A stretch of DNA of 36,771 nucleotides, taken from Halococcus morrhuae DSM 1307. Lineage in GTDB: Archaea > Halobacteriota > Halobacteria > Halobacteriales > Halococcaceae. Location of the stretch: the NCBI RefSeq assembly GCF_000336695.1, contig NZ_AOMC01000063.1, forward strand, positions 1-36,771, written 5' to 3'. The notes under the pieces were generated by a model. It saw only the letters and a program-made list of their open reading frames with translations. It searched no databases and was not told where the DNA came from. The position numbers were made by a program, and so were the translations under genes. Shown one piece after another: positions 8,744-17,274 of the stretch (the first letter of the stretch is position 1; every line of letters begins with the position of its first letter).

Positions 8744-9064
8744 TCACTTCCACGGATTCGAGACGAGTTCCGCCTGCACCGTCGCCCCGACCTCGACGTG
8801 ACAGTCCGAACGCGGCTTCGCGATACAGAGCAGGACGTATCCCTCGGTGCTGTGGCGTGGTTTCAGCGCACGCGCTCGTTCGGTATGGACGAGATCGCCC
8901 GCGATCAGTCGGCCCGTACAGGTGCCACAGGCACCGTACAGGCAGCCATAGGGAAGCGTCTGCTCCGTCCGTCTGGCAGCCTCGACGACGGTTTCGTCGG
9001 CAGCGACCGCGATCGTCCGAGTTGGTCCGTCGCGCCAGTCGAGCGTCACCTCGTGGGTGACCAT
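8744..9064 (-). CDS. 2Fe-2S ferredoxin (plant type)
   Basis: A 106-residue soluble electron carrier. Cluster ligands are C41, C46 and C49 in CLYGACGTC and C80 in LLCIAKP, the Cx4Cx2C...C pattern of plant-type ferredoxins. It lacks the long N-terminal helical extension found in classical haloarchaeal ferredoxins, so it is probably a specialised carrier. Its ATG follows the stop of the selenium-binding-protein gene with no spacer, so it is the distal gene of a two-gene operon and depends on its neighbour for expression. The family assignment is sure; the redox partner is inferred from the arrangement. Confidence 0.92.
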   Translation of the reverse strand: MVTHEVTLDWRDGPTRTIAVAADETVVEAARRTEQTLPYGCLYGACGTCTGRLIAGDLVHTERARALKPRHSTEGYVLLCIAKPRSDCHVEVGATVQAELVSNPWK

Positions 9065-10468
9065 CTACTGCCAGACGTCGCTCGTGCAGTCGCCGCCGGG
9101 CCAGCGGATCTCGTGGGCACGCGCCGGACCGCCGGGTGCGTCGCCGAAATCGACGAGGAACTCCTCGTCGAGCTCCATGCGCCCCTCCTCGGGATAGACG
9201 TCGGCTTTCATCATCAACGAACCCTCGTCGGCGATATCGGGATAGAACTGGTTGTCCCACGACGAGAACAGCGACGTTGTCCAGTAGAGCCGGCGGCCGT
9301 CGCGGCTGAGCTGGAGCATCTGTGGCGCACCGCGGATCTCCGTTCCCTGGATTGACTGCCGATCGCCGAAGTTGCCGCCGGCCCAGATTTGATCCACGAG
9401 TCGCGGGTTCCCCGTGTCGCTGATGTCGTACATCCGGCAGTCGCCGTGCAGCCAGTTCGAGAAGAACAGGTACTGATCGTCGAGCGAGATCAGCGTGTCC
9501 GTGACGAGCCCCGGGACGGGCATCTCCCAGTCGGGATGCTCGCGGTCGTCGATCTCGATGACCGTCTCCCAATCCCATGTACCGTCGTTGCGCTCCCAAA
9601 AGCGGATGATGTTCGATGCAAGCGCCGCGCCGACGTAGCCCTCGGTCGCTTCGGGATTGTGGAGCATCCGGATCTCCAGCGGGATTGCCCCTTCCTCGCC
9701 GAACGACAGCGTCTCCCGATGTTCCTTCGTTTCCCAGTCCCAGATATGGATGCTGTCGCCATACCGACCCGCTTCGACGTCGTCGAGATCGAAGCCCGGA
9801 TAGTAGGTCTTCGGGGCAGCCCACTCCGTCGAGAGCATCACCCCATGCCGGGGCTGATACCAGTAGTCGTACTGCATCTCGACGTCGCCGCGGTCGGCCT
9901 CCCAGCGGCCGTCGATCGAGAAGTCCTCTTGGTCGAGCTGGAGGAATCCGCCGGGAAGTTCGCCGTCGGCGTTGCCGAGCATGCTGATGACGATTTTTCC
10001 CTCGGGTACGCAGTGGACGGTATGTGGTGCCGAGAGGTCGTGCTCGAACACCGCCTCTGGTTCGATGACGCGTTCGATCTCCGGCTCTCGCGGGTCGGCA
10101 GCGTCGATGACGTGGATGCGCGAGGAGCGCTGGCCGGGAACGATCAGGTGGTCGCGCTGGAGGCCATCCATGTGACACGACGACGAACAGGTGTTCCAGC
10201 CGAAGTGATGAAGCTCGTCGCCTTCGTTCGGCATCTCCACCGTATCGATGATCTCACTGTACCGCTCGGAGGTCGGATCGACGTCGATGACGGCGATGAA
10301 ATCCGGTTCGTCGGTGTCCATGCCGACCCGCGGTGCCATGACGAACGCGGTCTCCTCGCGCGCCGATTCGGTGCGCATCGCCGCGGGCGTCGGATAGCCC
10401 GGTCCCTCGACGTCGTGGTGTTCGTGGCCGTGTGCGGCTCCCGGATCGCTCGATTCGTCGCTACTCAT
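9065..10468 (-). CDS. Selenium-binding protein SBP56 family / methanethiol oxidase homologue
   Basis: A 467-residue protein of the SBP56 family; characterised members are copper-dependent methanethiol oxidases that yield H2S, formaldehyde and H2O2. The conserved block DELHHFGWNTCSSSCH lies at about residues 84-99 with Cys94 and Cys98. Further His-containing family blocks include SAPHTVHCVPEGKI and YWYQPRHGVMLSTEW. An N-terminal His-rich stretch (HGHEHHD, residues 13-19) may help bind metal. No signal peptide is seen, so it is probably cytoplasmic. The ATG at 10468 was preferred to an upstream in-frame ATG at 10519 because a TATA-like CTTATTAG lies about 26 nt before it. A 2Fe-2S ferredoxin gene starts at the base after its stop codon. 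Confidence 0.92.
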   Translation of the reverse strand: MSSDESSDPGAAHGHEHHDVEGPGYPTPAAMRTESAREETAFVMAPRVGMDTDEPDFIAVIDVDPTSERYSEIIDTVEMPNEGDELHHFGWNTCSSSCHMDGLQRDHLIVPGQRSSRIHVIDAADPREPEIERVIEPEAVFEHDLSAPHTVHCVPEGKIVISMLGNADGELPGGFLQLDQEDFSIDGRWEADRGDVEMQYDYWYQPRHGVMLSTEWAAPKTYYPGFDLDDVEAGRYGDSIHIWDWETKEHRETLSFGEEGAIPLEIRMLHNPEATEGYVGAALASNIIRFWERNDGTWDWETVIEIDDREHPDWEMPVPGLVTDTLISLDDQYLFFSNWLHGDCRMYDISDTGNPRLVDQIWAGGNFGDRQSIQGTEIRGAPQMLQLSRDGRRLYWTTSLFSSWDNQFYPDIADEGSLMMKADVYPEEGRMELDEEFLVDFGDAPGGPARAHEIRWPGGDCTSDVWQ

Positions 10469-10490
10469 GGCGAGCAGTACCATCGATATG

Positions 10491-10498
10491 CTAATAAG
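10491..10498 (-). promoter_or_regulatory. TATA-like box of the SBP56-ferredoxin operon
   Basis: CTTATTAG on the minus strand, centred about 26 nt before the ATG at 10468. It supports the shorter start and a leaderless mRNA. Confidence 0.55.
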
Positions 10499-10582
10499 TG
10501 CTTGGTGGTACCAACCCACATCTACTATGGGGTCGTCGCCGGCAACCGACCGAGAGCACCGAAACGACCCGGACGACTCGTC

Positions 10583-11275
10583 TCACGTCTCAACCGGCAA
10601 CACGGCCGCTGGAAGCTGACCCCGAACCCCACGGACGGCGTTCGTCGGTGTTTCGAGGTCAAGCGGTGACAGCGTATGGGCCGGCACGCCCGTCATGCGC
10701 TCGATCGCCGCTGGATTCGTCCGCTCGGCGGTGCTCTCGCCGGTGTATTGGTTCAGGACGACCGCGTGGGTCGCGACGCCGCGTTGCGCGAGCGCCTCGA
10801 CGGTGAGCGCGGTGTGGTTCAGCGTTCCGAGGTCGGCGCATGCGACGACGACTGCGTCGAGACCGAGATCGGCGACGAGATCGAGAACGTCGTGCGCCTC
10901 GGTAAGAGGCACCCGTACACCGCCGATCCCTTCGAGAACGCCGACCTCGCTTGCGGCGAGTGCCCGTTCGCATTCCCGGCGGATCGCCCCGTACGAGAGC
11001 TCCACGCCGGCTTCCGCGGCGGCGATCCGGGGTGCGAGAGCCGGCTGCAACCGCTTCCCGCAGGTCGACGCGTCATCGGTGCCACAGACTTCCCTGACGA
11101 ACGTCGCGTCGTCATCCGTCGGAAACCCGGTCTGTACCGGTTTGATCGCGCGGGCATCGACCCCCTCGTCCCGGAGCCAGCCGACCAGCCCGGCAGTGAC
11201 GACCGTCTTCCCGACACCCGTGTCGGTCCCGACGACCGCGAACCCCGTCCTCTCACCCCCGCTTCGCTCACTCAT
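10583..11275 (-). CDS. bioD: ATP-dependent dethiobiotin synthetase
   Basis: A 230-residue enzyme that closes the ureido ring: 7,8-diaminopelargonate + CO2 + ATP to dethiobiotin. P-loop GTDTGVGKT is at residues 16-24, KPVQTG and the later EGIGGVRVPL motif match BioD. The ATG at 11275 overlaps the bioF stop by 8 nt, and the longer open frame upstream runs antiparallel-free inside bioF in another frame, so it is not used. It is the last gene of the bioB-bioU-bioF-bioD operon. The fold, motifs and context all agree. Confidence 0.95.
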   Translation of the reverse strand: MSERSGGERTGFAVVGTDTGVGKTVVTAGLVGWLRDEGVDARAIKPVQTGFPTDDDATFVREVCGTDDASTCGKRLQPALAPRIAAAEAGVELSYGAIRRECERALAASEVGVLEGIGGVRVPLTEAHDVLDLVADLGLDAVVVACADLGTLNHTALTVEALAQRGVATHAVVLNQYTGESTAERTNPAAIERMTGVPAHTLSPLDLETPTNAVRGVRGQLPAAVLPVET

Positions 11276-12515
11276 CGAGCACCCCGACGGCACGACCCGC
11301 CTCACGGAACGCACGCAGACAGCGTTCGAGCTCAGCGTCGGTGTGGGTCGCCATCGGGGCGACCCGGATTCGACTCGTCCCCGTCGGGACCGTTGGCGGG
11401 CGGATGGCTGGCGCAATGACGCCGTGATCCACGAGGCGATCGGCCAGCACCATCGCTCCCGCCCGCTCCCCGACGAGCACAGGCAGGATCTGGGTTTCGC
11501 CGAGCACCGTGTAGCCCATCGCTTCGAGCCCCTCGCGGAGCCGATCGACGGCACTCCACAGCCGGTGGCGGCGCTCGCTCTCACTCGCGATGGCGAGCGC
11601 TTCGCGCGCCGCCCCGGCGGCGGGCGGTGCGAGCCCGGTCGAGAACACGAACGACCGCGCGGCGTTCAGGAGGTGTTCGATCAACGCGTCGCTCCCGGCG
11701 ACGTAGCCGCCCTGGCTCCCGAGCGCCTTCGAGAGCGTGCCGAGCTGGACCTGCACGCGCTCCCCGAGACCCTCGCGCTGGACGATGCCGCCCGCCCCGT
11801 CGTAGAGCCCGGTCGCGTGGGCTTCGTCGACCATCACCCACGCGCCGTGGCGTTCGGCGATATCGCAGATCGCCGCGAGTGGGGCGATGTCGCCGTCCAT
11901 GCTGAACACCGAATCCGTCACGACGAGCCGGGTTTCGTCGTCCGTTGCGCGTGAGCGGTCCGCCAGCGCCGCGGCGAGCGCGTCGGCGTCACAGTGGTCG
12001 TAGACGACCGTCTCCGCGCTCACGAGCCGACAGCCGTCGACGATACTCGCGTGGTTCGACTCGTCCGAGAGGATCACGTCCGGCGCGAGCGCCGTGATCG
12101 CCCCGACGTTCGCGGCGTAGCCCGACGAGAAGACGAGCGCCCGATCGGTCCCCTTCGCGGCGGCGAGATCGCGTTCGAGCGCACGATGGACGGGTGTGTC
12201 GCCGGTGACGAGGCGGCTCGCGCCCGCGCCGGTGCCAACTGCCTTCGCCGCTTCCGTTGCTGCTCGCTGTACGCGTTCGTCGCTGGCAAGTCCGAGGTAG
12301 TCGTTCGTGGCGAAGAGCAGTCGCTCGGGATCGTCGAACGTCGGTGGCTCACCACCGGGATCGGGAGACACCCGGCTTCGTGCCGCGACGCGCTCCGTCG
12401 GAGCGAGATCGCGACGCAGCCCGCGCTCCTCGCGGGCAGCGAGTCGATCGTCGAGATCGAACCCGGCCTCGGGATGACGATGACCGCGTTCACCGGTCGT
12501 GTCGTCGCTGCCCAT
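11268..12515 (-). CDS. bioF: 8-amino-7-oxononanoate synthase
   Basis: A 415-residue PLP enzyme of the alpha-oxoamine synthase family that condenses pimeloyl thioester with L-alanine to KAPA. It contains NDYLGL at 71-76, GAGASRLVTGD at about 96-106, DEAHATG at 230-236 and the PLP lysine in LSKALGSQGG, K263. About 20 extra residues at the N-terminus (GERGHRHPEAGFD) precede the fold. The start codon shares one base with the stop of the bioU-like gene (TGATG) and the end overlaps bioD by 8 nt, so expression is coupled. The source of pimeloyl thioester is not visible here; there is no bioC, bioH or recognisable bioW. Confidence 0.94.
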   Translation of the reverse strand: MGSDDTTGERGHRHPEAGFDLDDRLAAREERGLRRDLAPTERVAARSRVSPDPGGEPPTFDDPERLLFATNDYLGLASDERVQRAATEAAKAVGTGAGASRLVTGDTPVHRALERDLAAAKGTDRALVFSSGYAANVGAITALAPDVILSDESNHASIVDGCRLVSAETVVYDHCDADALAAALADRSRATDDETRLVVTDSVFSMDGDIAPLAAICDIAERHGAWVMVDEAHATGLYDGAGGIVQREGLGERVQVQLGTLSKALGSQGGYVAGSDALIEHLLNAARSFVFSTGLAPPAAGAAREALAIASESERRHRLWSAVDRLREGLEAMGYTVLGETQILPVLVGERAGAMVLADRLVDHGVIAPAIRPPTVPTGTSRIRVAPMATHTDAELERCLRAFREAGRAVGVLDE

Positions 12516-13540
12516 CAGAATTCGGGCATGAGGTCGGCCGGGCCGAACACCCCGTACTCGCCAGCACGATTCCGCTGGACGCCGGCCTTCAGGTAGCCGA
12601 GCGCCGGGCCGTTGACGTTCGCGGCCATGCTGGTCTCGTCGCCCAATTCGAACGTGTTGGTCGCGTGCTCGCCGTCGAACGTACGTCCCGTGACGCTGAC
12701 GGTCGTGGTCGTCGGCTTCTCGTCGCTGCGGACGTCGAGTATCCCGCCGACGGACACGTCGTCGGCGTCGCAGATGCCTGCCCGCTCCAAGAGGACGTCG
12801 TCGGCATGTTCCATCTCCTCGAACTCGATCACGCCGTCGTGCTCGTCGACGATCCCCTCGATCTCCTCGTCGGTCAGCTCCCGCGCGGTCTCGATGTCGT
12901 AGCCCGGCAGATGGGCGATGTCCTCCCGAACGGTCCCCCGATTGTCCTCGTAGCCGGATTTGAGTCCGACACCCCAGTGGATCTCCACCGATTCGATCTC
13001 GACGAACGACTGAGCGGCGAGTGCTGCCGCGCCGGTGAGGAAGCCGGGCGTCGCGCCCGCACCGCAGACGAACGTGATCCCCGACTCCTCGAAACTATCG
13101 GCTCGCCCGTCGAGCATCCCGATCACCCGCGAGCGCTTGAGCACGTCGACGAGGACACCCTCGTAGCCCGCGCCTGTGAACCGTTCCGCGACCCGCGGGA
13201 TGAAGTCGTGTTCGAGGTTCGGGAGCGCGATCAGGACCGCGTCGATCGCGTCGCTCTCGGCGATGATGTCCTCGATCGGTGTCTCGGTCGAGCGCGCCTG
13301 TGCCGAGGCGACGACGCCAGCCCCCGCGCCGTGTTGCTTGACCGCCGCACCGCCGTCGGAAGCGACGTTGCCCTCGGTCGCCGCGAGGAGTTCGTCGACG
13401 TCGAGACCGTCGTGATCGATGGCGATGCCGTTTCGGTCGCAGGCCGCGACGGGGAGCAAACCGGGTTTCTCCCGCGATACGTCGAGTGCTCGTCGCCCGA
13501 TGCCGCCCGTGCCGAGAACCGCGAATCTGATGTCGTGCAT
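12515..13540 (-). CDS. bioU: BioU-like NAD(P)-dependent (S)-8-amino-7-oxononanoate synthase-linked enzyme, KAPA to DAPA
   Basis: A 341-residue oxidoreductase-fold protein. A Rossmann motif VLGTGGIG lies at about residues 8-15, and a second region has CGAGATPGFLTGAAA. It is of the type often labelled saccharopine-dehydrogenase-like or homoserine-dehydrogenase-like. BioU of cyanobacteria belongs to this type and makes DAPA from KAPA using its own lysine as amino donor. Here the gene sits between bioB and bioF in an operon that lacks bioA, exactly the gap BioU fills. A lysine in VDVLKRSR (K135 from this start) is a candidate for the sacrificial residue; this is inference. The ATG at 13540 is chosen because the Rossmann strand follows at once; an in-frame GTG at 13573 would add 11 residues and overlap bioB. 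Confidence 0.82.
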   Translation of the reverse strand: MHDIRFAVLGTGGIGRRALDVSREKPGLLPVAACDRNGIAIDHDGLDVDELLAATEGNVASDGGAAVKQHGAGAGVVASAQARSTETPIEDIIAESDAIDAVLIALPNLEHDFIPRVAERFTGAGYEGVLVDVLKRSRVIGMLDGRADSFEESGITFVCGAGATPGFLTGAAALAAQSFVEIESVEIHWGVGLKSGYEDNRGTVREDIAHLPGYDIETARELTDEEIEGIVDEHDGVIEFEEMEHADDVLLERAGICDADDVSVGGILDVRSDEKPTTTTVSVTGRTFDGEHATNTFELGDETSMAANVNGPALGYLKAGVQRNRAGEYGVFGPADLMPEF

Positions 13541-13562
13541 GTCTGTGATGATCGTCGTTTTC

Positions 13563-14669
13563 TCAGTCGTCACTCGCGTCGATCCTGGCCGATTCGGCCG
13601 GCGTTCCGACCGCCGAGTCGTCCCTGTCGCGCGCCTTCACCGCTTCCGGATCGAACTCGTTCGATTCCATGTTCGGCTCCAGGCCGGCGCGCTCCATCGC
13701 CTCGATGTCAGCACCGGGCGACTGGCCCTCGGTCGTGAGGTAATCGCCCGTGAGGACGCCATCGGCACCCGCCTCGAACGGGAGATGCTGTTCGTCCGGT
13801 CGGAGGTTCACCTCCCGGCCGCCGGTCAGCCTGACCCGCGCCTCGGGATGGAGCAGCCGGTAGACCGCGATCGTCTCGACGAGCTCGGTCGTCGAGATGG
13901 CGGCGTGATCGGCGTCGCCGAGTGGCGTCCCCGCGACGGGGTTGAGGACGTTCACCGGGAACGAGGCGATCCCGATCTCCTGGAGTTCGATCGCCGCCTC
14001 GACCCGGTCGGTCGGCGTCTCGCCCATCCCGAGGATGACGCCGGCACAGAGATCCATGCCAGCATCCTTGGCGACCCGGAGGGTGTGGAGGCGGTCCTCG
14101 AAGTCGTGCGTGGAGACGATCTCGTCGAAGTAGCGCCGCGAGGTCTCGATGTTGTGGTTGTAGTGGTTGAGCCCCTCGTCAACGAGGATCTCGGCCTCTT
14201 CCTCGGTGAGGAGGCCGAGCGAGGCGTCGACCTCGACGGCGGTCTCGTCGCGGACCAGCCGGACGGCTTCGATGACGTCGCGCCACTCCTCCGGTCGGCG
14301 CTCCTTCGAGACGCCCTTCTCGGCGACCACGATGCCGAAGCGCTGTGCGCCGTCGCGTTCGGCGCGTTTCGCGGCCGCGAGAATTTCCTCGGGATCGAGA
14401 AAGCCGTGGGTGTCGATGCCGGTATCGAAGTGGGCTGACTGCGCGCAGAAGCCGCAGTCCTCCGCGCAGTCGCCGGCTTTCGCGTTCACGATCGAACAGG
14501 CGTCGACCGTGCCGTCGCCGAACCGTGCGCGGACGAAATCGGCGGCAGCCGCGAGCTCCTCGACCGGTTGGGCGAGCAGTGCGAGCCCGTCCGTCCGATC
14601 GAGGCGCTCGCCCGCGAGCACGCGCTCGACCGCGCCGTCTATCGTTCGGTTTCCAGTCTCGTAAACCAT
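13563..14669 (-). CDS. bioB: Biotin synthase
   Basis: A 368-residue radical SAM enzyme that inserts sulfur into dethiobiotin. The 4Fe-4S motif is C68-x3-C72-x2-C75 in GDCAEDCGFCAQS. Further conserved blocks are YNHNIETS, AGVILGMGET and FPVNVLNPVAGTPL. Length is slightly above the usual 320-350, with an acidic tail after NMESNEFDPE. It is the first gene of the operon: a TATA-like ATTTATTATT lies about 26 nt before the ATG, and bioU follows 22 nt after the stop. Expression of the whole cluster probably starts here. No BirA-type operator could be recognised. Confidence 0.96.
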   Translation of the reverse strand: MVYETGNRTIDGAVERVLAGERLDRTDGLALLAQPVEELAAAADFVRARFGDGTVDACSIVNAKAGDCAEDCGFCAQSAHFDTGIDTHGFLDPEEILAAAKRAERDGAQRFGIVVAEKGVSKERRPEEWRDVIEAVRLVRDETAVEVDASLGLLTEEEAEILVDEGLNHYNHNIETSRRYFDEIVSTHDFEDRLHTLRVAKDAGMDLCAGVILGMGETPTDRVEAAIELQEIGIASFPVNVLNPVAGTPLGDADHAAISTTELVETIAVYRLLHPEARVRLTGGREVNLRPDEQHLPFEAGADGVLTGDYLTTEGQSPGADIEAMERAGLEPNMESNEFDPEAVKARDRDDSAVGTPAESARIDASDD

Positions 14670-14690: not shown

Positions 14691-14700
14691 AATAATAAAT
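14691..14700 (-). promoter_or_regulatory. TATA-like box of the biotin operon
   Basis: ATTTATTATT on the minus strand, centred about 26 nt before the bioB ATG at 14669. It is the most AT-rich run in this intergenic region. The DNA from 14701 to 14867 holds no recognisable gene. Confidence 0.6.
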
Positions 14701-15512: not shown

Positions 15513-16304
15513 TCAGATCGCCGTCCAGCCGCCGTCGACGAATAAGAGCTGGCCGGTGACGTAGGAAGCGTTCTCGCTGGCGAGGAAGAGCGCCGCACCG
15601 GCGTTGTCGTCGGGATGGCCGGCCCGCCCGAGCGGAACGGGTTTGATGAACCCACCCTCCTCGCCGGCAGCTTCCTGAGCCTCGTCGGACCAGCCCTCGG
15701 TGAACTCGGTGGCGATCTGTCCGGGCGCGATCGCGTTCACCCGGATGTCGTGCTCGGCGAGTTCGAGCGCCGTGCCCTTGGTGATCATCTTGATCGCCCC
15801 CTTGGTCGAGTCGTACTGGACCTGGCCATGCTGAGCGACCCACGAGGAGATCGAGGCGGTGTTGACGATGCTCCCCGGTTCGTCGCGATCGATCATGTCC
15901 CGTGCGGCGGCCTGCGTCCCGAAGAACACGCCCTTGGGGTTCGTCTCATGAAGCCGATCGAAGTCCTCCTCGTCGACATCGAGAAAGGCCTCCGAGTGCT
16001 GGACGCCGGCGTTGTTCACCATCACGTCCACACCGCCGAACTCGCGGGCGGCCTCGACGACCGATTCGAGTTCGTCCGGATCCGAGACGTCCGTCTCGAC
16101 GTACTCGCCGGTGCTGCCCGACTCCGAAATCAGTTGATGGGTCGGCACGCTCTCTCCGTCCATCTTCGGCTCCTCGCGCACGTCGGCGACGATGACTGTT
16201 GCGCCCGCGCGCCCGAACCCGAGGGCGATGGCGCGTCCGATGCCTGCGCTGCCGCCGGTGACGATCACGGTCTCGTCGCTGTAATCGAAGTTCGCCGTTC
16301 CCAT
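15513..16304 (-). CDS. Short-chain dehydrogenase/reductase (glucose 1-dehydrogenase-like)
   Basis: A 263-residue classical SDR with NAD(P)-binding TGGSAGIG at residues 16-23, NNAG at 97-100, a catalytic serine near 151-153 and the Y164-x3-K168 pair (YDSTK). The C-terminus (PLGRAGHPDDNAGAALFLASE, then YVTGQLLFVDGGW) is the usual end of SDRs acting on sugars or small alcohols. The ATG at 16304 was chosen over GTG at 16319 because a TTTAAG box lies about 27 nt upstream. The next gene upstream is an UlaG-like hydrolase on the same strand 42 nt away, but each has its own promoter. Substrate unknown; the neighbouring enolase-superfamily gene suggests sugar or sugar-acid metabolism. Confidence 0.9.
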   Translation of the reverse strand: MGTANFDYSDETVIVTGGSAGIGRAIALGFGRAGATVIVADVREEPKMDGESVPTHQLISESGSTGEYVETDVSDPDELESVVEAAREFGGVDVMVNNAGVQHSEAFLDVDEEDFDRLHETNPKGVFFGTQAAARDMIDRDEPGSIVNTASISSWVAQHGQVQYDSTKGAIKMITKGTALELAEHDIRVNAIAPGQIATEFTEGWSDEAQEAAGEEGGFIKPVPLGRAGHPDDNAGAALFLASENASYVTGQLLFVDGGWTAI

Positions 16305-16327
16305 AGCCCCTGCTCGCACGTCGACCC

Positions 16328-16333
16328 CTTAAA
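16328..16333 (-). promoter_or_regulatory. TATA-like box of the SDR gene
   Basis: TTTAAG on the minus strand, about 27 nt before the ATG at 16304; it lies between the SDR and the upstream hydrolase gene. Confidence 0.55.
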
Positions 16334-16346
16334 TCCGCTGCCGGCG

Positions 16347-17207
16347 CTACTCGCGGCGATCCTGCAACTGCACGACGCCCGGTTCGCCGACGTCCACGCG
16401 ATCGCCGATGGAGACGATCTCGACGACCCGCGGGTACTCGTAGGAGGCCGCGTGTTCGTGGATGACCTTCGGATCGGAGCCCACGCCCTTCCACATGTCC
16501 CAGTGCACGGGCATCAACCGCTGGAGTTCGAGCTGGTTCGCCGCCTCGACGACCTGCTCGCCGTCGTTGTACCAGTCGGTCGGGTAGGTTTCTGGAGGAT
16601 TGTCCTCGGTGTGGAAGACGTTCCCGACGGTGCCGTAGGCGAGCACGCCGAGATCGATGTCGAACTCGTCGGCGATGTCGGCGAACTCGTCGGCGGGACG
16701 GGAGTCACCCGCTGCGAAGAAGGTGCCCGACTCGTGTTCGACGACGTAGGTCACTGGCTCCTCGGCATCGGGGTCGTTCGCGCCGCGGACGTGGATCGAA
16801 AGGTCGCCAACGGTGAAGTCGTCACCGGGCGCGACGGTCTCGGCTGGAGGAGCCTCGACATCACCATCGTAGTTCGGCGCGTCCTGGGAGGCCGCGGGCG
16901 CGTAGAGGTCGCCGCCGCACTCTTCGACGAGCGCGCGGTGGGAGGGCGGATGCATGTGATCGATATGCTCGTGCGTGACGAGGACGGCGTCGCAGAGCGT
17001 TGCGTCGGCGGGGTCCATCGGCACGGGGATCATCCGGATCGTGCGCGGCGGCGACCCGTCGCCGAGATACGGGTCGAGGTAGATCGTCGTTTCGGCGGTG
17101 CGGAGGACGTAGCCATTGCAACCGAGATACCAGACCGCGAGCCCGTCCGGGTCGGCGGCTTCGATCTCGTCCTGTACGAACCAGTCGCCCCACGTCGAGT
17201 GTACCAT
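16347..17207 (-). CDS. Metallo-beta-lactamase-fold hydrolase, UlaG-like
   Basis: A 286-residue MBL-fold protein. The metal site is H79-x-H81-x-D83-H84 in THEHIDHMH, with further ligands in AAGDS and a late histidine in PVHWDMWK. The overall layout resembles UlaG, the L-ascorbate-6-phosphate lactonase, and related proteins. ATG at 17207 is preferred to an upstream start at 17273 because TATATTA lies about 29 nt before it. An enolase-superfamily gene lies upstream on the same strand. Together they could open a sugar lactone and dehydrate the acid, but neither substrate can be read from sequence. UlaG homologues are also mis-named as generic Zn-dependent hydrolases. Confidence 0.88.
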   Translation of the reverse strand: MVHSTWGDWFVQDEIEAADPDGLAVWYLGCNGYVLRTAETTIYLDPYLGDGSPPRTIRMIPVPMDPADATLCDAVLVTHEHIDHMHPPSHRALVEECGGDLYAPAASQDAPNYDGDVEAPPAETVAPGDDFTVGDLSIHVRGANDPDAEEPVTYVVEHESGTFFAAGDSRPADEFADIADEFDIDLGVLAYGTVGNVFHTEDNPPETYPTDWYNDGEQVVEAANQLELQRLMPVHWDMWKGVGSDPKVIHEHAASYEYPRVVEIVSIGDRVDVGEPGVVQLQDRRE

Positions 17208-17232
17208 ACCGCGCAGGTTTCGCCCTCGATGG

Positions 17233-17239
17233 TAATATA
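17233..17239 (-). promoter_or_regulatory. TATA-like box of the UlaG-like gene
   Basis: TATATTA on the minus strand, about 29 nt before the ATG at 17207. It is the strongest TATA match in the window. Confidence 0.65.
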
Positions 17240-17274
17240 CTGCCGGCCGGCTCTCGTCGATCGCCCGCGCCACC

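Follow-up and report, generated by a model that had tools for sequence, protein, structure and literature searches.

A bioB-bioU-bioF-bioD operon in Halococcus morrhuae points to biotin synthesis by a self-consuming BioU, probably under a BirA-type operator

We analysed a 36,771-nucleotide stretch of the Halococcus morrhuae DSM 1307 genome (contig NZ_AOMC01000063.1; hereafter the window), taken from an assembly of 2.99 Mb in 167 contigs that is 94.9% complete. Profile searches and open reading frames (ORFs) placed four biotin genes on its minus strand in the order bioB-bioU-bioF-bioD (Table 1). A preliminary description, made from the sequence of the window, had proposed four overlapping or closely spaced bio genes behind a TATA box, with BioU in place of an aminotransferase of the BioA type. 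The gene order and coordinates were confirmed, and a TATA-like element was found ahead of bioB. The bioU and bioF genes overlap by one base (TGATG) and bioF and bioD by eight (ATGAGTGA). If bioU is read from the GTG at 13573 it overlaps bioB by 11 bases, and if it is read from Met12 a gap of 22 bases separates the two genes. The overlaps had been taken to fit a fixed protein ratio, but gene overlap alone does not set the stoichiometry of BioU to BioF.

Table 1. Biotin genes, key codons and upstream elements in the window (positions of the forward strand).
Feature	Position	Strand	Basis
bioB, biotin synthase, 368 aa, first gene	13563..14669	-	TIGR00433 336.6 bits, cut-off 225; radical SAM and BATS domains
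bioU, 341 aa from Met12 (ORF open from GTG 13573, 352 aa)	12515..13540	-	NF047886 E=2.3e-104; PDB chains of Slr0355, E=5.5e-89; AlphaFold2 model matches five BioU structures at TM 0.86-0.91
bioF, 8-amino-7-oxononanoate (KAPA) synthase, 415 aa	11268..12515	-	TIGR00858 407.2 bits, below the cut-off of 426.45; next family 60 bits behind
bioD, dethiobiotin synthase, 230 aa	10583..11275	-	TIGR00347 116.3 bits, cut-off 83.3
Lys135 codon (K146 of ORF), opposite Lys124 of Synechocystis BioU	13136..13138	-	residue is Ala in 6itd (title K124A)
His245 codon (H256 of ORF), opposite His233	12806..12808	-	residue is Ala in 6k38 (title H233A)
Operator-like repeat (BirA-type), GTAAACT-N14-GGTTTAC on the minus strand, spanning the bioB start codon	14661..14688	.	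exact pattern at two places in the genome
TATA-like TTTATTA, -30 to -24 from the bioB start	14693..14699	-	sequence; T at -29 in 110/118 and at -28 in 117/118 bioB starts

The identity of the second gene was examined by profile, sequence and structure comparisons. Its product matched a single NCBIfam family, BioU (NF047886, 348.9 bits), and Pfam returned nothing except a sub-threshold dehydrogenase match. A phmmer search of the PDB retrieved the chains of Synechocystis BioU (Slr0355), aligned over residues 13-352 of the ORF; the alignment gave 47% identity, and the eight haloarchaeal proteins aligned ranged from 43 to 48%. An AlphaFold2 model of the protein reached a mean predicted local distance difference test score (pLDDT) of 83.1 and a predicted template modelling score (pTM) of 0.84, from an input alignment in which the window protein was joined by 24 sequences from cyanobacteria, relatives that favour the BioU fold. 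When this model was searched with Foldseek, the first five ranks were all Synechocystis BioU (6k37, 6itd, 6k38, 6ir4 and 6k36), with template modelling (TM) scores of 0.86-0.91 and root-mean-square deviations of 2.3-2.7, and the next hits, dehydrogenases acting on diaminopimelate or amino acids, reached a TM of about 0.5. The agreement of profile, PDB match and fold upheld the proposed assignment to BioU. One review passage places a "BioU" among BioH-type esterases; it contradicts the titles of the structures and was not used.

The residues on which BioU chemistry depends could be located from the mutant structures. In 6itd, titled BioU (K124A), the alanine faces a lysine of the window protein, which puts that lysine at the reactive position. 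It is the lysine of VDVLKRSR singled out in the preliminary description as K135, a number that holds for translation from Met12 (K146 in the 352-residue ORF). In 6k38, titled H233A conjugated with 7,8-diaminopelargonic acid (DAPA), the alanine faces H256 of the ORF. Among 107 haloarchaeal BioU loci, 105 span each of the two positions, and the lysine and the His233 equivalent were each kept in 105 of 105; both residues were also present in 80 of 80 cyanobacterial loci. In a tree of the sequences that passed a length filter (102 of 107 haloarchaeal, 79 of 80 cyanobacterial), the two groups fell on either side of the midpoint with no sign of recent exchange; the tree has no outgroup, and the direction of any transfer cannot be read from it.

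The distribution of the pathway was surveyed in 391 haloarchaeal genomes, with only the best few BioU, BioA and BioD candidates scored per genome. BioB was found in 177 (E ≤ 1e-60), BioD in 149 (E ≤ 1e-20) and BioU in 150. The BioU genomes comprise the listed matches down to 9.2e-54 and one at 1.4e-38 (G264; G, C and L are our labels for genomes, contigs and loci); genomes whose best match was 3.7e-8 or weaker, or that had none, were counted as negative. BioU and BioD occurred together in 148 genomes, BioU only in 2, BioD only in 1 and neither in 240 (Fisher p 9e-106, shared ancestry ignored). An alternative pathway was considered for the three exceptions and rejected, as two reflect the ends of contigs and the third a bioD that is split: the contig ends soon after bioU in G186, bioD follows bioF directly as two matches with a gap in G323, and bioF-bioD lies on two contigs in G227, with bioF cut by a contig end. 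In G096, which has BioU without BioB, bioB is likewise split into two matches with a gap. The 28 genomes with BioB and without BioU had bioF in 6 and bioD over cut-off in none. Another enzyme acting on KAPA in these genomes was rejected on the lack of a bioD over cut-off and on a bioU stub left between bioB and bioF in one of them (G182, L225); the stub makes decay likelier, at least in G182.

The gene order of the window was found in 85 of the 131 loci examined, a set that includes one BirA locus, some stretches that are short and some genomes picked on purpose for having bioB only, and that does not take in all 150 BioU genomes; two of the loci overlap (L181 and L230, one gene twice), and G230 contributes two. 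Together with the BioU E-value of 2.3e-104, this recurrence rules out a chance finding. The bioB and bioU genes are separated in G129, G281, G300 and G371. Plasmids of 269-987 kb carry bioU in seven PLSDB records, and the whole operon was present in the three that were opened (L128, L129 and L130). Examples come from Haloferax larsenii, Natronococcus occultus and Haladaptatus sp. QDMS2, and the product is labelled there as "transcriptional regulator" or "hypothetical protein". According to a study of Haloferax mediterranei (PMC10779274), bioD (HFX_5076), bioF (HFX_5077) and bioB (HFX_5079) drop together when an Lsm mutant is starved of nitrogen. HFX_5078, by its number between bioF and bioB, is presumably bioU.

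Some loci depart from the common layout. In L211 (G033), L218 (G242) and L225 (G182) bioB is followed by bioF and there is no bioD, and the first two also have no bioU. At L168 (G264), L188 (G248) and L170 (G150) the match to bioU is broken over two or three reading frames by frameshifts that are either real or introduced by sequencing. G286 and G230 have two bioB copies each, and G230 has two bioU places.

The preliminary description also held that no pyridoxal phosphate (PLP) aminotransferase of the BioA type is present, and the searches agree with it. BioA (TIGR00508) was not found over cut-off in the H. morrhuae genome at its 94.9% completeness, and over cut-off or at E 1e-100 it was found in 0 of the 391 haloarchaeal genomes, compared with 6 of 14 control genomes. 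Thus neither of the two findings named beforehand as refuting the BioU reading, a bioA elsewhere in the genome or a residue other than lysine at the reactive position, was made. The survey of Chow et al. (2018; PMC6138646) reports Halobacteria with bioF, bioD and bioB but bioA in 0 of 31, describes archaeal biotin pathways as fragmentary in all but two phyla, and lists possible bio clusters in Methanococcales and Thaumarchaeota only. Most likely, BioU fills this published gap.

The start of the operon was then compared across haloarchaea. We aligned 118 bioB starts, representing 117 distinct 81-base stretches, and skipped five more loci in which the start was missing or unaligned. The motif GTNAAC stood at -19 in 115 of the 118, and codon 2 of bioB was GTT in every one, whereas GTT accounts for 7.3% of the valine codons when all bio genes at these loci are counted. 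The right half of the repeat is formed by bioB codons 2 and 3, and the repeat spans the start codon in the haloarchaea examined. Of the three exceptions at -19, two read GACAAC, and in the third (L136) the motif is displaced by a single base. Exact inverted half-sites, GTCAAC...GTTGAC, are present in L136 and likewise in two of the skipped loci, in G382 and, by eye, G285. A TATA-like T-T-A-T occupies -29 to -26, and a pyrimidine was found at -1 in 118 of 118. Because these positions fit a transcript that begins at the start codon, the bioB mRNA is probably leaderless.

The pattern GTNAAC-N15-RGTTNAC is confined to two places in the H. morrhuae genome, the bioB start and a site beginning 42 bases before the start codon of a gene for the biotin transporter BioY (Pfam BioY, 112 bits, cut-off 25); the reversed control gave 0. 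Across 242 genomes there were 376 forward matches compared with 74 for the reversed control, and 225 genomes had a match and 17 had none. The mean number of sites per genome was 2.07 with BioB (n = 104, control 0.36) and 1.17 without (n = 138, control 0.27), so that the presence of bioB corresponds to about one more site per genome. Of 32 site loci examined, which were chosen by the tool and are not a random draw, 19 were two-strand matches and 18 of these lay at bioY or bioB. The remaining one, L245 (G226:C6:39505-39532), is the sole two-strand site away from these genes by tblastn. All four bioB starts of the two genomes with duplicated bioB carry the repeat (L026, L227, L185 and L186).

The biotin ligase (BirA) of H. 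morrhuae, of 305 residues, contains HTH_11 (46.2 bits, cut-off 25), BPL_LplA_LipB and BPL_C domains, all over the Pfam cut-offs. Since the repeat is found at both bioB and bioY and the ligase has a DNA-binding domain, the operon is probably under biotin repression, and bioBUFD together with bioY probably forms a BirA-type regulon, as judged from sequence. The earlier suggestion that bioU expression must match the need for biotin thereby gains a concrete, if predicted, basis in the operator-like repeat shared with bioY. The operator might instead be bound by a different protein. The BirA repressor-domain model TIGR00122 scored 50.5 bits, below its cut-off of 70, the binding of BirA is itself a prediction, and some PLSDB records annotate the product of archaeal bioU as a transcriptional regulator. 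We regard this as unlikely, however, as the ligase combines the DNA-binding, ligase and BPL_C domains, the half-sites and the 14-base spacer resemble the bacterial BirA site, TTGTAAACC-N14/15-GGTTTACAA, and the operator sits at genes for biotin synthesis and uptake. BirA is probably the operator-binding protein.

The cyanobacterial enzyme provides the model for the chemistry. As summarised from Sakaki et al. (2020) in PMC12915131, cyanobacterial BioU couples 8-amino-7-oxononanoate (AON, the same compound as KAPA) to Lys124 with NAD(P)H, the adduct is carboxylated, and diaminononanoate (DAN)-carbamic acid is released with NAD(P)+, leaving Lys124 irreversibly changed. According to PMC12475003, Synechocystis BioU shifts in sedimentation after RNase treatment and is listed as a candidate RNA-dependent protein, a behaviour that is unexplained for a suicide enzyme.

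Based on these data, we propose the following route. BioF would convert a pimeloyl thioester into KAPA. The NAD(P)-dependent, Rossmann-fold BioU would then condense the amino group of its own Lys135 with the KAPA ketone, reduce and carboxylate the adduct, and free the diaminononanoate carbamate by oxidation. BioU would lose its lysine nitrogen in the process, such that one BioU is spent per molecule. BioD would close the ring and BioB would insert the sulphur. Transcripts would begin on the bioB start codon or immediately beside it, within the operator, where BirA probably binds when biotin is high, as it would at the operator before bioY; repression by biotin would thus limit the waste of protein. 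The same chemistry as in cyanobacteria is the best explanation for the haloarchaeal protein, because the lysine, the histidine and the fold are conserved and BioA is absent; the single turnover, one BioU per biotin, is carried over by analogy with the Synechocystis enzyme. We consider it very likely that the operon makes biotin through BioU self-donor chemistry under a BirA-type operator. The broader proposal is that the whole archaeal class makes biotin only through a consumable BioU, with BioA absent throughout and the supply metered by a BirA-type operator that lies across a leaderless start codon and is common to the biotin importer; this we favour by a modest degree.

A protein that is BioU by descent may nevertheless turn over many times in haloarchaea, if a free nitrogen donor is used or the spent lysine is re-aminated. 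Single turnover is described for the cyanobacterial enzyme only in the literature accessible to us, and the haloarchaeal proteins form a group of their own in the tree at the modest identity to Slr0355 noted above. With a free donor, however, the lysine would be free to vary, and yet it is kept at every locus that spans it, and no gene of a repair type recurs next to the operon among 21 regions. Multiple turnovers are therefore improbable in our estimation. We consider it very unlikely that a class-III aminotransferase aminates KAPA and the BioU-like protein has another role. Four such enzymes of H. morrhuae match the bioA model below cut-off, the best (contig C124) at 241.1 of the required 405 bits, but none has bioA as its best model. 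One is best matched by an acetylornithine-type model (PRK03244, narrowly ahead of LysJ), one by PRK06062, one by PRK05769 and one by a glutamate-semialdehyde type (PRK00062/HemL). The operon encodes BioU, not an aminotransferase, and across the class the occurrence of BioU follows that of BioD.

Several observations weigh against single-turnover BioU synthesis under a biotin-responsive operator. The bioU product scores below the curated 600-bit cut-off of NF047886, as do the proteins of all 391 haloarchaeal genomes, of which the H. morrhuae protein is the highest at 349 bits; this cut-off is an annotation threshold and not a biochemical trait, and it probably explains why NCBI records lack the BioU name. 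About 5% of the H. morrhuae genome may be missing from the assembly, and KAPA is a conceivable substrate of the class-III omega-aminotransferase on contig C124. The operator pattern also arises by chance: the reversed control gave 74 matches over 242 genomes and, with both strands counted, turned up in 81 of these genomes, and 13 of the 32 site loci were one-strand matches, none of which lay at bioY or bioB. Neither a paper on an archaeal BioU nor biochemistry for one was found among the papers listed by searches of the literature covered, which misses most subscription journals, including the BioU paper. Finally, the pimeloyl-CoA ligase BioW had no match in the H. morrhuae genome, and among 111 genomes it was over cut-off in none and below it in two.

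BioW was accordingly rejected as a general source of pimelate, and PMC6138646 gives bioW as present in 0 of 31 Halobacteria. One of the two sub-threshold matches lies in a 1.9-Mb genome of family f6 (G021), in which bioB-bioW-bioU-bioF-bioD are on one strand (L290, G021:C76). Its bioW, at 3629-2946 between bioB and bioU, scored 203.4 of 226 bits to NF002360 (pimeloyl-coenzyme A (CoA) ligase), and its position inside the operon ties BioU to biotin synthesis based on pimeloyl-CoA. A dedicated pimelate or repair gene adjoining the operon was also sought in the 21 regions (17-23 kb) and rejected, as only the four bio genes were common to more than eight of them. The family found in eight regions arises from reading the operon on its reverse strand. 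Two further recurrent types were named by eye, succinyl-CoA ligase-like genes in five regions and a hydrolase-like gene in four.

The operon of the window is flanked at 8744-10519 by genes for SBP56 (selenium-binding) and a 2Fe-2S protein and at 15513-17273 by genes for a short-chain dehydrogenase/reductase (SDR) and a metallo-hydrolase. The same four gene types are found beside the operon on plasmid 2 of Natronococcus occultus (L129), and the arrangement is not general elsewhere. These neighbours were rejected as leads, since they belong to none of the families listed for at least three of the 21 regions.

With respect to novelty, archaeal BioU homologues may already be mentioned in the BioU literature, and we claim no priority for them. 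What appears new is the operator-like repeat GTNAAC...GTTNAC over the bioB start; the class-wide setting of BioU and the probable regulatory switch were not found described in the literature searched. The assignment would fill the bioA gap for 150 of the 391 genomes surveyed and would replace the labels "transcriptional regulator" and "hypothetical protein" in databases by BioU. It makes a documented gap directly testable, but the BioU family is already known and a sequence search finds it immediately. It would also place a single-turnover vitamin enzyme in genetically tractable archaea, where one could measure what it costs, how it is regulated and what becomes of the protein once spent, and it offers haloarchaeal genetics a candidate biotin-responsive operator. 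If the consumable enzyme is indeed the only route, it explains the missing haloarchaeal bioA and, within the literature searched, would be the first BioU outside cyanobacteria described with its genomic and regulatory setting.

We compared the haloarchaeal system with three that are known. It shares with Synechocystis BioU (Slr0355; 6ir4, 6itd, 6k36, 6k37, 6k38; NF047886) similarity over the whole length, the fold, the reactive lysine and the His233 equivalent, and it likewise occurs in a genome without bioA over cut-off; Synechocystis, too, is not known to have a bioA. It differs in its archaeal host, in its 47% identity and in its score below the curated BioU cut-off. Haloarchaeal bioU also lies inside a bioB-bioU-bioF-bioD operon under an operator-like repeat, while bioB, bioF or bioD was found near bioU in 0 of 80 cyanobacterial loci (haloarchaeal queries at E 1e-12, up to 6 kb on each side and often less). 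BioA (TIGR00508, including the archaeal BioA of Methanococcales and Thaumarchaeota) acts at the same step of the pathway as BioU. The two are unrelated in fold and chemistry, and BioA is over cut-off in none of the haloarchaeal genomes. The third system is the BirA biotin regulon of bacteria and archaea, which the predicted haloarchaeal regulon resembles in its inverted half-sites GTNAACY/RGTTNAC with a 14-base spacer (as in the bacterial consensus), in its bifunctional BirA and in its targets, biotin synthesis and bioY. It is set apart from that regulon by a repeat that spans the bioB start codon itself and uses codons 2 and 3 as its right half.

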